Source: a virus. From it: DNA of 20,174 nucleotides. Positions within the stretch are counted from its first letter, which is position 1. Each line of letters opens with the position of its first letter. The notes under the pieces are model-generated. The model had not been told where the DNA came from, made no database searches, and saw only the letters and a program-made list of their open reading frames with translations. The stretch spans positions 1 through 20,174 of the IMG/VR virus record IMGVR_UViG_3300006738_000002, one strand, 5' to 3'. The translations under genes and the position numbers were made by a program. This document shows positions 2,156-20,174 of the stretch, in pieces.

Positions 2156-3121
2156 ATGAAAAATGAAAAAAGAAAAGAAATTAAATACTTCTCAATGTTC
2201 TCAGGGGTCGGAGGATTTGAACTCGGACTCAGAACCGAAGATAATAAATTCATTTGTGTCGGACTTTCAGAAATTGACAAATTCTCATCAGAACTCCTCT
2301 CCAAAAAGTTTCCGTCAGTTAAAAATTGGGGAGACTGCACAAAAATCAATCCAAGTGAACTACCAGACTTTGATTTGTTGTGTGGAGGATTTCCTTGTCA
2401 AGCATTCTCAATTGCTGGAAAAAGGGAAGGTTTCAATGATACCAGAGGGACATTGTTTTTTGAGATTGCAAGAATACTTGAAGTTAAAAGACCTAAAATT
2501 ATACTCCTTGAAAACGTCAAAGGGTTACTCAATCACAACAAAGGGGAAACTTTTAGAAAAATCATTCAAACGCTTTCAGAATTGGGGTATGATGTTCAAT
2601 GGATGGTTCTTAACAGCAAGTTTTTTGGAGTTCCCCAGAACAGAGAGAGGGTATTCATTATTGGAAGTATTAGAGGACAACCCAAACCAGAAATATTACC
2701 TTTCAAAGAAAAGTGTCAAGACAATAATGAAAAGGGTGGAGGACAAATATCATCCACCCTCACTTCTACATATTGTAAGGGGTGGGGTGGAGGGAGAACA
2801 GCAATAATGAGGGGAAGACCAAAGATGCCTTATGAACAAGGGAAAAGAGAATTAAAATATACTATTTACCACAATACTTGTCCAACACTTTCACAAAATT
2901 GTGCAAGTGGAGACCAGAAGAATATAGTAATGCCTATGATAAGAAGATTAACTCCCTTAGAATGTGAACGACTTCAAGGATTTCCTGATGGTTGGACAGA
3001 AGGATTCTCAGACACCCAAAGATACAAGATGATGGGGAATGCAGTAACCGTCAATGTAATTAAATCAATTGTTGAAAGATTAAATAATTCACAAAATAGA
3101 CACTTTGTGAAAGATTTATAA
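2156..3121 (+). CDS. C5-cytosine DNA methyltransferase
   Basis: This is a complete 321-residue DNA (cytosine-5) methyltransferase. Motif I FSGVGGFELG is at residues 15-24, the catalytic Pro-Cys-Gln is at 80-82 (nucleophile Cys81), and the ENV motif is at 119-121. These are followed by FGVPQNRERVFIIG (motif VIII), LTPLECERLQGFP (motif IX) and MGNAVTVNV (motif X). Length and motif order match active bacterial and viral Dcm-type enzymes. The target-recognition segment lies between motifs VIII and IX (about residues 180-265). No cognate nuclease is present, which suggests a protective orphan enzyme. It has no clear SD and lies behind a structured leader. Confidence 0.96.
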   Translation: MKNEKRKEIKYFSMFSGVGGFELGLRTEDNKFICVGLSEIDKFSSELLSKKFPSVKNWGDCTKINPSELPDFDLLCGGFPCQAFSIAGKREGFNDTRGTLFFEIARILEVKRPKIILLENVKGLLNHNKGETFRKIIQTLSELGYDVQWMVLNSKFFGVPQNRERVFIIGSIRGQPKPEILPFKEKCQDNNEKGGGQISSTLTSTYCKGWGGGRTAIMRGRPKMPYEQGKRELKYTIYHNTCPTLSQNCASGDQKNIVMPMIRRLTPLECERLQGFPDGWTEGFSDTQRYKMMGNAVTVNVIKSIVERLNNSQNRHFVKDL

Positions 3122-3356: not shown

Positions 3357-3885
3357 AAAATTAATAAAATTTATTTCACTTGAAGAATTTAAAAAAGTTC
3401 TGAAGGCAGAGAAAGACAATAAGTATAAACTTGCTTATGTTCTTGCGTTTGGTTCAGGTTTAAGGATTAGTGAAATCGTTGGACCTTCAGGAAATTCCAA
3501 TCAGGAAATTAAACCAATTACAAGAGAACAAATCAACTTGGAAACAAAACAAATAAAAGTCTTTGGAAAAGGTGCAAAAGAAAGAATCACAGTCATCAAT
3601 CCTTATTTCCCTTTAAAAGAAAATATGCTTAAACTTCTCCCTTTGAAGATTGAACGGAGAACATTACAATATCATTTTTCAAAACTAACTGAAAAGGTTT
3701 TAAAGAAAAGGATGAGTTTTCATACATTAAGACATGGCTTTGCAAATCACATGGCTAATGACAGAAAAATCTCCCTTCCAATGTTGCAGGGTTTTGGTGG
3801 GTGGAGCAGACTTGACACAGTGGGGCTTTATACCCACGCCAATCCAAAACAGGCCATCTCAGAGGTTTGGGAGGGTTTTGAGTGA
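3349..3885 (+). CDS. Tyrosine recombinase/integrase, catalytic domain only
   Basis: This 178-residue protein is a compact tyrosine recombinase. Catalytic residues are visible: Arg39 in SGLRISEIV, the beta-hairpin Lys74 in FGKGAKER, His125 and Arg128 in HTLRHGF, Trp152 at the third His/Trp position, and the nucleophile Tyr161 in LYTHANP. XerC/D-type enzymes are near 300 residues with an N-terminal core-binding domain. Here that domain is absent and the protein starts directly at the catalytic fold. It could integrate or excise the circle, or resolve multimers. No tRNA gene or attachment site was identified nearby. It overlaps both neighbours, including an ATGA junction at 3882. Confidence 0.92.
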   Translation: MAKKLIKFISLEEFKKVLKAEKDNKYKLAYVLAFGSGLRISEIVGPSGNSNQEIKPITREQINLETKQIKVFGKGAKERITVINPYFPLKENMLKLLPLKIERRTLQYHFSKLTEKVLKKRMSFHTLRHGFANHMANDRKISLPMLQGFGGWSRLDTVGLYTHANPKQAISEVWEGFE

Positions 3886-4541
3886 TGGAATTTCAAACAA
3901 TGATGATTGGGGTTGGAATTATATTTATTGTCTTATTGGGTGCAATCGGAGGTTTTATGATATATTACAATAAAATGTATAAATATCGGATAAGATTATT
4001 TTATCAGTTGAGTGGTGAAGAACAATATCACGAAGGCAAAACATACAAGGCAAGAAAAGTCTTTTTATCAAAAGGAGGAGTTCAAAGATTATGGGTCCCA
4101 AAGTTAAAAGAGTATGTTTCTTATTTTGGGAAGAAGATGGGAGAAAATAAATATTATTATGCTGAAGGTCCTGATGGTTATTTATATAATATAGTTCTTG
4201 GAGACTTGGACACTGCACGAGGTGTCCTGGACATTGAACCCATTGACAGAGACTTGAGGGATTTTTATATAACTAATCAAAGAAACATAAATGAACGCTA
4301 TCAAAAACCAAAGAACTGGCCGATGATTCTTCAAAGTGTGACAATTGTTTTTATAGTGATTTTAATGTTTGCAGGAGGTTATGTAATATTTGACCAGATG
4401 AAAGTTGCAGGTGAACAAGTAAGCAAAAACCTTGAATCAACAATCGCAGTCACAGAACTACAAAAAGAATTAATCTCAAAAATATATAAGTTGGTTGGGG
4501 AAGTAGATGGAGGAGGCCCAGGCATTATTGCCGTTCCATAA
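3882..4541 (+). CDS. Two-helix membrane protein with a central soluble domain
   Basis: This 219-residue protein has a membrane helix at about 8-28 and a second at about 148-170. They enclose a Tyr- and Lys-rich soluble domain of roughly 115 residues that contains YKARKVFLSKGG and an EGPDGYLYNI strand. A helical tail (about 172-205) may form a coiled coil, and a Gly/Pro-rich end follows. It has no catalytic motif. It is coupled to the integrase by an ATGA overlap and lies 2 nt before the next membrane gene, so it belongs to the same transcript. Virion envelope or host-membrane modification are both possible. Confidence 0.75.
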   Translation: MMEFQTMMIGVGIIFIVLLGAIGGFMIYYNKMYKYRIRLFYQLSGEEQYHEGKTYKARKVFLSKGGVQRLWVPKLKEYVSYFGKKMGENKYYYAEGPDGYLYNIVLGDLDTARGVLDIEPIDRDLRDFYITNQRNINERYQKPKNWPMILQSVTIVFIVILMFAGGYVIFDQMKVAGEQVSKNLESTIAVTELQKELISKIYKLVGEVDGGGPGIIAVP

Positions 4542-4543
4542 AA

Positions 4544-5023
4544 ATGAATCCCTGGATTTTATTGGGTGTTGCTTGGTTGGGAAGTTGGATATTCATAGCA
4601 ATACTTTTTTTTATATGGGTTAAGTTAAGCACAAGATTATTGAAAGGGAGGTATAAAGAAGAAAATGACCGAGGAAGACCAATTAAAGACCTTATTAAAT
4701 CAAGGGGAATTAACAAGGGAGGAATACGAGGCAAAGGTTTTGGAGTTGAGGAGAACACAACAACAACCAGTTCAATCCCCACCAGTTCAATCCCAACCAG
4801 TTCAATCCCCTCCAGTTCAACCAGTTCAGTCCCCAACAGTGAGCAGGGAGCAAGAGGAGATTCAGAGACTGAATCAACAAATTTATTTAATGGACAAGGC
4901 ATATATAAACCAACAAACTCTTTTATTCCAACAAGAGATGCTGAAGGTTTTAAAAGAGATTTCCACGAACCTACTCCCTCCAGGAAATTAAGTTTTTCTG
5001 AAAGGAGATGGAAAAAAGATTAA
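4544..5023 (+). CDS. Membrane-anchored protein whose frame encloses a second gene
   Basis: This reading frame codes 159 residues. The N-terminal 26 or so hydrophobic residues form a convincing membrane helix (MNPWILLGVAW and onward) followed by a basic stretch. From residue 41 the frame overlaps a SHOCT-like gene at 4665 in the +1 frame, and becomes Ser/Thr/Pro-rich with repeated SSIPT units. Its stop falls inside the next gene (5008), which would allow coupling. The helix strongly supports the first 40 codons. Whether translation continues in this frame to 5023 or shifts +1 into the SHOCT frame is unresolved. Confidence 0.55.
   Translation: MNPWILLGVAWLGSWIFIAILFFIWVKLSTRLLKGRYKEENDRGRPIKDLIKSRGINKGGIRGKGFGVEENTTTTSSIPTSSIPTSSIPSSSTSSVPNSEQGARGDSETESTNLFNGQGIYKPTNSFIPTRDAEGFKRDFHEPTPSRKLSFSERRWKKD
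4665..4991 (+). CDS. SHOCT-like oligomerisation motif protein with Pro-Val-Gln repeats
   Basis: This 108-residue protein lies wholly inside the frame starting at 4544. Residues 4-28 (DQLKTLLNQGELTREEYEAK) match the SHOCT pattern: a short helix, a Gly-x-Leu/Ile-Thr turn and an EEYEAK helix. A PVQSP-type repeat follows (residues about 34-58), then a coiled-coil-like helix rich in Gln, Glu and Leu. GGGAGG lies 13 nt before the ATG. SHOCT motifs often sit after a membrane helix, as would happen if this were fused by a +1 shift to the upstream frame. Confidence 0.72.
   Translation: MTEEDQLKTLLNQGELTREEYEAKVLELRRTQQQPVQSPPVQSQPVQSPPVQPVQSPTVSREQEEIQRLNQQIYLMDKAYINQQTLLFQQEMLKVLKEISTNLLPPGN
4767..4835 (+). 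repeat. 15-bp tandem repeat inside the overlapping genes
   Basis: The unit CCAGTTCAATCCCCA occurs at 4767-4781, 4782-4796 and 4797-4811. A partial unit follows at 4812-4820, and a variant at 4821-4835. It encodes Pro-Val-Gln-Ser-Pro/Gln repeats in the SHOCT frame and Thr-Ser-Ser-Ile-Pro repeats in the other frame. Replication slippage could change repeat number without disturbing either frame. Confidence 0.9.
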
Positions 5024-5331
5024 TTGAAAATATTATTTTTATTAGTTTAGTTTTAATTTTAGTTTTAGCAGTAGCATTTTTTATATTTTATTTTAAAAAT
5101 CAAGAGGACATTTGTCAAGTGAACCCTTTGGTTTATGGTGCAAAACAATACACCAAAATGGACCATATATCAACTGCACAGGGTAGGGTAATTCTGGGGA
5201 CATTCCCCCCTTCAGAAATATGGTTTAATGAAAACAATATGACTTTTTTAAGTCAGAAATATAAAACAGGGTCAGGAGATAATCTCCTAACCCCAAAAAC
5301 AAATTTTAGTTTTTTGGTTGTAGATGGTTAA
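5008..5331 (+). CDS. Small membrane-anchored exported protein
   Basis: This 107-residue protein has an N-terminal membrane anchor (about 9-30, ISLVLILVLAVAFFIFYF). A predicted extracellular domain follows, with one Cys and strands ending in FSFLVVDG. The AAAGGAG sequence directly abuts the ATG, too close for a normal Shine-Dalgarno, so initiation may depend on coupling to the frame that ends at 5023. The stop TAA at 5329-5331 is directly followed by the stop of the convergent capsid-candidate gene. Function unknown. Confidence 0.7.
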   Translation: MEKRLIENIIFISLVLILVLAVAFFIFYFKNQEDICQVNPLVYGAKQYTKMDHISTAQGRVILGTFPPSEIWFNENNMTFLSQKYKTGSGDNLLTPKTNFSFLVVDG

Positions 5332-5658
5332 TTAAAACCCACCTCCTTGACCGAACATCCCCATTTTTCTTGCTTGGAAGATTAATAATGCTAATGCTCC
5401 GAAAAGAAGAACAACTGCCGAGATAAGCAATATGGTTGGGATTTTATTCCCTACATTTGCGATACCTGATGTCAGATTTGTAGCCAAATTATTTGCAGAA
5501 TTGTCATAAGTTCCACCAGAAGTCAATAAATTTGCTCCTAAAATAGTGTCAATTAAAACATAACCAATCACTACTGTGAAAATTAAACCAATCATACCAA
5601 CAACAAGACCAGAGACAACTTGTCCCTTTTTATTAGTTCCTAATTTTCTTAATTTCAT
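5332..5658 (-). CDS. Small two-helix membrane protein, major capsid protein candidate
   Basis: This 108-residue protein has a basic N-terminus with NKKGQ (residues 9-13), two long hydrophobic helices (about 14-42 and 73-96), a polar Gly/Ser/Asn/Thr linker and a Gly-rich tail. NKKGQ followed by a hydrophobic helix looks like a class III (archaeal pilin-like) leader that may be cleaved. Spindle-shaped archaeal viruses (SSV VP1/VP3, His1, PAV1/TPV1) build their shells from small proteins with two such helices, so this is the best capsid candidate. It is the only gene of the minus arc with a clear private TATA promoter, as expected for an abundant protein. An archaeal pilin-like or holin-like protein is the main alternative. 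Confidence 0.7.
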   Translation of the reverse strand: MKLRKLGTNKKGQVVSGLVVGMIGLIFTVVIGYVLIDTILGANLLTSGGTYDNSANNLATNLTSGIANVGNKIPTILLISAVVLLFGALALLIFQARKMGMFGQGGGF

Positions 5659-5723
5659 AATTAAAATAAACCCCCTTTCATAACTTTCTTATTGAATAGC
5701 ATTAAAAATTATATACTAATTAC

Positions 5724-20035: not shown

Positions 20036-20138
20036 AGTGTTTACTGATGAGGACTTTCGTGAGAACTATTTGAAAAGCATAACCAAAGAGAAGTTTGAGA
20101 ATCTAAATAAACAGGAGGAAAAAGAAAATGATAATTAA
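20025..20138 (+). CDS. 37-residue micro-ORF crossing the circle junction
   Basis: ATG 20025, preceded by AAAGGA, encodes 37 acidic residues starting MDIRVFTDED. They end with the NLNKQEEKEN stretch, which is also the methyltransferase's own tail. The frame continues past the join and ends at position 87 of the left copy, overlapping the methyltransferase start. The shared tail comes from the 32-bp repeat. Confidence 0.58.
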   Translation: MDIRVFTDEDFRENYLKSITKEKFENLNKQEEKENDN

Positions 20139-20174
20139 AGGTGATTGTATAGAAGAATTAAAGAAACTTCCAGA
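20052..20174. repeat. Terminal direct repeat (right copy)
   Basis: This is the exact second copy of bases 1-123. It contains the end of the 37-codon gene that starts at 20025, the AGGAGG ribosome-binding site and the first codons of the methyltransferase annotated at 77-1372. Confidence 0.9.

Follow-up and report, generated by a model that had tools for sequence, protein, structure and literature searches.

A probable pair of nested, separately initiated genes in a virus family found with DPANN-archaeal genomes

When the same stretch of viral DNA is open in two frames of one strand, does it encode two proteins, a single protein made by a change of frame, or one protein together with a tail of little consequence? 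This question is raised by a whole virus record of 20,174 bases, which is referred to here as the window. Given the exact 123-base direct terminal repeat at positions 1-123 and 20052-20174, the genome in this record is probably complete, being either circular or terminally redundant. The phylum of the genomes carrying relatives suggests DPANN archaea as hosts, bearing in mind that bins can hold stray virus contigs. An initial annotation of the window had described a reading frame from 4544 that begins with a membrane helix and a SHOCT-like frame from 4665, displaced by +1 and lying wholly inside the first. It had offered two alternatives, namely, two proteins made from the same DNA or a +1 frameshift that yields a helix-SHOCT fusion. 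We refer to the two open reading frames (ORFs) as outer and inner and list them with their neighbors in Table 1.

Table 1. Coordinates of the nested pair, its component features, and the adjacent genes in the window
Feature	Position	Strand	Basis or role
Upstream neighbor of 219 aa with a pair of hydrophobic segments and a conserved DGxWxNxxxGDxD-like region	3882..4541	+	Syntenic anchor for finding relatives
Outer ORF, membrane protein, 159 aa, ATG start	4544..5023	+	Profile match and predicted helix
Outer protein N-terminal hydrophobic helix, residues 3-36	4550..4651	+	AlphaFold2
GGGAGG, Shine-Dalgarno-like, 13 nt ahead of inner ATG	4646..4651	+	Sequence
Inner ORF, SHOCT, P/V/Q-rich linker and long helix, 108 aa, ATG start	4665..4991	+	
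SHOCT PF09851 match in inner protein	4671-4736	+	E 1.1e-7, 27.1 bits, six-frame search
Tandem repeat of a 15-bp unit, 3.7 copies, keeping the phase of both frames	4766..4820	+	
Inner protein long C-terminal helix, residues 61-103	4845..4973	+	AlphaFold2
Next gene, small membrane protein, 107 aa	5008..5331	+	

The outer ORF begins 2 nt past the stop of the upstream gene, with no Shine-Dalgarno (SD) sequence immediately ahead of it. The next gene starts within the last 16 nt of the outer ORF, and a 16-nt gap that contains AAAGGAG separates it from the inner ORF. Neighbors of the pair include small membrane proteins and a LamG-bearing protein, and a two-helix protein at 5332-5658 may be of the kind to be expected for a virion coat.

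The individual features that the initial annotation had read from the window stand. The inner ORF lies wholly within the outer ORF at an offset of 121 nt, which corresponds to +1. The membrane helix at the start of the outer protein is predicted by AlphaFold2 with a mean pLDDT of 92-98 over residues 1-30; past residue 40 the value is about 50, and the protein beyond its N-terminal helix is predicted to be disordered. The SHOCT-like motif corresponds to a six-frame match that passes the Pfam gathering cut-off of 27 bits for PF09851 by so little that it is borderline, and a search with the whole inner protein falls just below that cut-off (26.2 bits, E 6.3e-6). Two helices are predicted in the SHOCT region (residues 3-12 and 18-33, with a mean pLDDT of >90 over residues 1-30), and a long C-terminal helix is predicted as well (mean pLDDT of 92-98 over residues 61-100). 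Over the shared DNA, AlphaFold2 thus gives ordered helices for the inner protein and a disordered tail for the outer one. The GGGAGG proposed as a ribosome-binding site is present and is read in the outer frame as the G-R of a GRYKEEND stretch, and the 15-bp repeat encodes a PVQSP linker in the inner protein and SSIPT in the outer protein.

How surprising is it that both frames are open in this one genome? When the inner protein was kept and its codons were shuffled within the gene, the 4544 frame was open in 1.6% of 20,000 shuffles, and when codons were drawn by the codon usage of the virus, it was open in 0.015% of 20,000. Conversely, with the 4544 protein kept, the SHOCT frame was open in 10% (within gene) or 5% (virus codon usage) of shuffles. 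Codon usage in the overlap scores +17.7 bits for the 4544 frame, -3.6 for the SHOCT frame, and -42.1 for the third frame. Because codon usage disfavors the SHOCT frame, the case for its coding depends on the Pfam match, the ribosome-binding site, and the relatives. The 15-bp repeat is open in both gene frames, as the initial annotation had pointed out, but it carries little weight as proof because the repeat region (4761-4845) is open in two of the three plus frames and two of the three minus frames. A minus-strand ORF of 125 aa (4525..4902) also crosses the pair, which indicates that the region is generally stop-poor; the ORF itself is probably a by-product of this composition.

Relatives were sought through the upstream gene, without any open-frame criterion. 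The route led from a pilin motif to DPANN genomes, from there to virus ATPase homologs (of 371 genomes sampled within a single phylum, 65 had them), then to contigs with an upstream-gene homolog, and from these to a profile of the upstream gene. A pattern for the upstream gene, not derived from the pair, picked out 21 viral_contigs stretches, 13 of which, L199 among them, proved to be upstream-gene homologs and match the family profile at E<=4e-48. Thirteen relatives were found, giving 14 viruses with the window (the window, L211, L152, L204, L202, L196, L209, L198, L205, L208, L194, L213, L210, and L203). L157 is identical in sequence to L211, and the two were counted once; L199 was left out as it has no DNA downstream of the upstream-gene homolog, as were L162, L147, and L143, in which distant upstream-gene homologs are followed by other genes. 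In L211, L204, L208, and L210, a manually chosen ATG further downstream replaced the first candidate inner start, and SD-like sites in the relatives were identified by eye. Single-query searches of viral_contigs with the 4544, 4665, 3882, 17716, and 12841 proteins gave no useful relatives, and matches in L001 and L002 were rejected as artifacts of repeated peptides. Nothing useful was obtained from the two-row alignment A5 against viral_contigs, the virus ATPase in phages and genome_contigs, the 4544 protein in phages, or an upstream-gene homolog in phages and plasmids.

The upstream gene (3882-4541) and the 13 viral_contigs loci constitute an orphan family whose proteins have a DGYWYNIVLGDLD-like core as well as two hydrophobic segments and for which no convincing match was found in Pfam (window member) or PHROG (13 members). 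This family is a useful marker of the virus group. In L146, the virus ATPase homolog at 3750-5663 (+) has its P-loop region interrupted by a long insert that resembles an intein.

In all 14 viruses, a membrane ORF homologous to that of the window is accompanied by an inner ORF, which is without exception in the +1 relation and starts with ATG. An SD-like site lies 4-16 nt before the inner ATG in every virus except L204. The inner ORF starts 104-156 nt after the end of the upstream gene (275 nt in L211), and the two ORFs overlap by 327, 233, 230, 212, 218, 206, 269, 203, 209, 194, 65, 170, 191, and 224 nt; the short overlap is that of L194, in which the outer frame ends 65 nt into the inner gene. 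Pairwise identity among the 14 inner proteins averages 25% and reaches at most 53%, and in most relatives the inner protein is short, acidic, and coiled-coil-like, with a YxRQ-type motif. Among the 18 loci with a clear upstream-gene homolog and downstream DNA (window included), 13 have an outer ORF that overlaps a +1 inner ORF by 170-327 nt and three have shorter overlaps (11 nt in L189, 65 nt in L194, and 74 nt in L191), and no inner ORF was found downstream of the upstream-gene homolog in L190 and L192. The two genes of L189 are arranged in tandem in the +1 relation, the second with its own GGAGG, and the second-gene protein has marginal homology to the inner family (E 0.0099). The overlapping ORF of L191 is only a candidate counterpart of the inner gene. 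In the upstream-gene tree, L152 groups with L189-L192, and the deep branches are unresolved. About 1 kb downstream of its upstream-gene homolog, L192 has an ORF that runs from about 9330 downwards (-) and resembles a reverse transcriptase; different small ORFs occupy this place in L191, a close relative, and the two contigs diverge there.

The outer ATG lies within a few bases of the stop of the upstream neighbor in most loci, and the outer stop overlaps the start of the next gene in 6 of the 11 loci with a listed next gene, by 4 nt in five and by 1 nt in one. Stop/start overlaps of 1 or 4 nt are the usual signature of coupled neighbors. The overlaps observed here are what one would see if the outer frame were translated all the way to its stop, and they are supportive rather than decisive, as the choice of next-gene start was mechanical.

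These arrangements bear on the second alternative of the initial annotation. A programmed +1 frameshift just before 4665 would produce a fusion of the membrane helix with the SHOCT and coiled-coil regions, with the SD-like site stimulating the shift, as an SD-like sequence does in bacterial RF2. In 14/14 viruses, 3-20 codons ahead of the inner ATG are open in the inner frame, so such a fusion is possible, yet a frameshift needs neither the ATG, conserved in all 14, nor the SD-like site found in 13. In favor of a frameshift, the outer frame reads AGG-AGG at the SD-like site in several relatives, and these arginine codons could be slow; against it, the two genes of L189 stand in tandem with an 11-nt overlap and a GGAGG ahead of the second. 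A pure frameshift also does not need the outer frame to be open to its far end, yet it stays open. We consider a frameshift unlikely; of the two alternatives, two proteins gain support from the 14 viruses that keep the +1 pair, and the fusion is unneeded, with nothing specific in its favor.

Stops in the 4544 frame of relatives past the inner start had been named as evidence to look for against the nested pair. Across the 14 viruses, none occurs before the end of the outer ORF, compared to 32.2 expected over an equal length from synonymous shuffling with the inner protein kept, whereas stops in the third frame are not depleted (113 observed and 98.4 expected). In a run-length test with the inner protein kept, the outer frame is expected to be open in 0.87 of 14 viruses by permutation (subtracting the window leaves about 0.85) and in 0.01 of 14 by locus codon usage, with Fisher combinations of 1e-9 and 3e-35, respectively. 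The converse is weaker: with the outer protein kept, the inner frame is expected to be open in 6.2 of 14 viruses (permutation) or 1.6 of 14 (usage). Openness beyond chance is therefore strong for the outer frame and weaker for the inner frame. Within-gene permutation of single viruses gives P values of just 0.001-0.38.

The modest values for single viruses, obtained with each gene's own codons, would be compatible with the possibility that nothing beyond the N-terminal part of the outer protein is needed in addition to the inner gene. The tail of the outer protein would then be junk that is tolerated, a consequence of an inner gene rich in K/E/Q. The absence of outer-frame stops, together with a third frame that is not depleted, argues against this possibility, as does codon usage in the window, which favors the outer frame. 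In favor of a junk tail, the tail is weakly constrained in sequence and predicted to be disordered; against it, the outer stop is coupled to the start of the next gene in 6/11 loci. Although L194 manages with 20 tail residues in the overlap, the overlap is at least 170 nt in 13 of the 14 viruses, and we regard a junk tail as unlikely. An error of sequencing or assembly, in which an indel would have broken up a single helix-SHOCT gene, is conceivable in principle for frames one base apart over a short stretch but is excluded in practice by the same +1 relation in 14 separate, divergent records and by the tandem form in L189.

Both protein families are recognizable by homology, with exceptions for the inner one. 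A profile built from the 13 relatives only ranks the window's outer protein first among 300 ORFs (E 1.3e-7), with a match that spans outer residues 13-73, about 33 of which fall in the overlap. Leave-one-out profiles place the outer protein at rank 1 in 14/14 viruses, with E values from 2e-22 to 0.022. For the inner protein, the corresponding count is 11/14, each at rank 1 and E<=4e-10; the inner-family profile misses the inner proteins of the window (E 3.4), L152 (E 1.8), and L202 (not found). A scan of 12 other inner proteins gave no match to SHOCT. Apart from SHOCT, neither Pfam nor PHROG yielded a convincing match for the inner, outer, or upstream family; one outer-family member matches phrog_3793 at 8.2e-7. 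Searches of the three families against PDB sequences gave no match below E 0.17, and Foldseek against PDB gave none at E<=0.001.

Amino-acid similarity in the outer frame exceeds that of shuffles (z 4.8), but the third frame behaves alike (z 4.5), so the excess is no proof of selection on the tail, and the idea that outer-frame residues are conserved beyond the inner-frame constraint was dropped. At conserved inner residues, synonymous codon identity shows no increase over the overlap (0.41-0.52, compared to 0.48-0.52 in the upstream gene), and synonymous sites look saturated. The charge of the outer tail lies below the shuffle mean (combined z -3.2); the idea that the tail was selected to be basic so as to bind an acidic inner protein was rejected because the tail is less basic than the code alone gives. 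The outer frame is apparently held open by selection and its beginning held recognizable, and little constraint on the tail is apparent beyond openness.

We conclude, with a probability of about 0.8, that the pair consists of genuinely overlapping, separately initiated genes in a virus family found with DPANN-archaeal genomes. The geometry recurs among the relatives, as do the retained open outer frame and the start site. That both proteins are translated is what we infer from these sequences. The outer gene would make a small membrane protein with an N-terminal helix and a long disordered tail, and its near-adjacent ATG suggests that it could be translated by coupled re-initiation after the upstream neighbor. 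Ribosomes would also start at the internal SD and ATG within the outer codons and read the +1 frame. In many viruses, the outer codons for a RYKxEND-like stretch contain both the SD and the ATG of the inner gene, so that ribosomes can start there independently. The inner product would be a soluble helical protein, which in the window would consist of SHOCT, linker, and helix. The role of the pair may be membrane-associated, and the inner protein, made from the same mRNA, might conceivably act as a partner of the outer protein in the membrane of the host or the virion.

A likely origin of the nested pair is the loss of the outer stop codon, after which the 3' end would have grown over the downstream neighbor; we infer this direction, and tandem and partly overlapping arrangements are also present among the relatives. 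The SHOCT-linker-helix protein of the window has no detectable homology to the inner proteins of most relatives, yet the outer frame stays open and the beginning of the outer tail is still recognizable. It is possible, if doubtful, that the outer membrane gene provides a fixed slot (SD, ATG, and +1 frame) in which the protein is replaceable. Should this be true, one coding layer of a dual-coding gene would have been exchanged without loss of the other.

The window also contains a second nested frame, a 214-aa ORF at 2163-2807 (+) in the +1 frame of a C5 methyltransferase (2156-3121). This ORF is open in 0/5,000 synonymous shuffles, with 8-10 stops expected, and its translation matches phrog_16143 (E 8.5e-24). 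A tblastn search matched the translation to 106 phage records, mostly under annotated methyltransferase genes among the 30 matches listed. In the window and in seven of eight phage loci fetched, the +1 frame stays open for at most 135-215 codons in a row, with P 0-0.016 for each locus; the seven tested were L217-L219 and L221-L224, and L220 was just read through. The +2 frame is unremarkable in 7/8 of the loci (the window plus the seven phage loci), +2-frame similarity is also raised, and no conserved start or SD was seen for the ORF and its phage counterparts. The nested +1 ORF may be an unrecognized overlapping gene of phage methyltransferases, and none was described among the papers listed by a literature search for such a gene.

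No report of the outer and inner pair was found in the literature on overlapping genes, archaeal viruses, and alternative frames, of which our search covered a part. Gene callers tend to discard one member of a long overlap between genes on the same strand, and few such overlaps are therefore on record for prokaryotic viruses. In the accessible part of a survey of viral overlaps, +1 is the commonest same-strand shift once overlaps of 1 and 4 nt are set aside, and +1 overlaps have a median length of 14 nt (interquartile range, 8-26) (PMC8903798). Compared to the overlaps described there, the pair has a common phase but an uncommon length, at 65-327 nt in 14 viruses of one family.

We know of no established function for SHOCT. 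The window's inner protein resembles SHOCT proteins in its match to PF09851 at the Pfam cut-off and in its two predicted short helices. In the available portion of the SHOCT description, the domain is mostly C-terminal and the authors' test did not support oligomerization (PMC3581485). In contrast, the SHOCT of the window is N-terminal (residues 3-24 of 108) and is encoded inside another gene.

The pair also resembles Rz/Rz1 of phage lambda, the two-component spanins, in which a membrane-anchored outer gene has a second gene embedded in its +1 frame. Embedded, overlapped, and separated arrangements of spanins are described in the accessible part of PMC6139136, and a spanin-like gradient is present in this family, with overlaps from 327 down to 11 nt. 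However, the inner protein has no cysteine, and hence no lipobox, in 14/14 viruses, so the pair is not classed as a spanin; no spanin name appears among the PHROG matches listed. The pair also differs from Rz/Rz1 in its apparent archaeal setting, among putative virion membrane genes. As far as the accessible part of the spanin study extends, no spanin family is reported to mix embedded members with overlapped or separated ones (PMC6139136), whereas members of the single outer family described here range from near-separate through overlapped to embedded. The presence of near-tandem, partly overlapping, and fully embedded states in one family makes the route to an embedded gene testable, and a real gene of such a pair may be lost when these archaeal-virus genomes are annotated.
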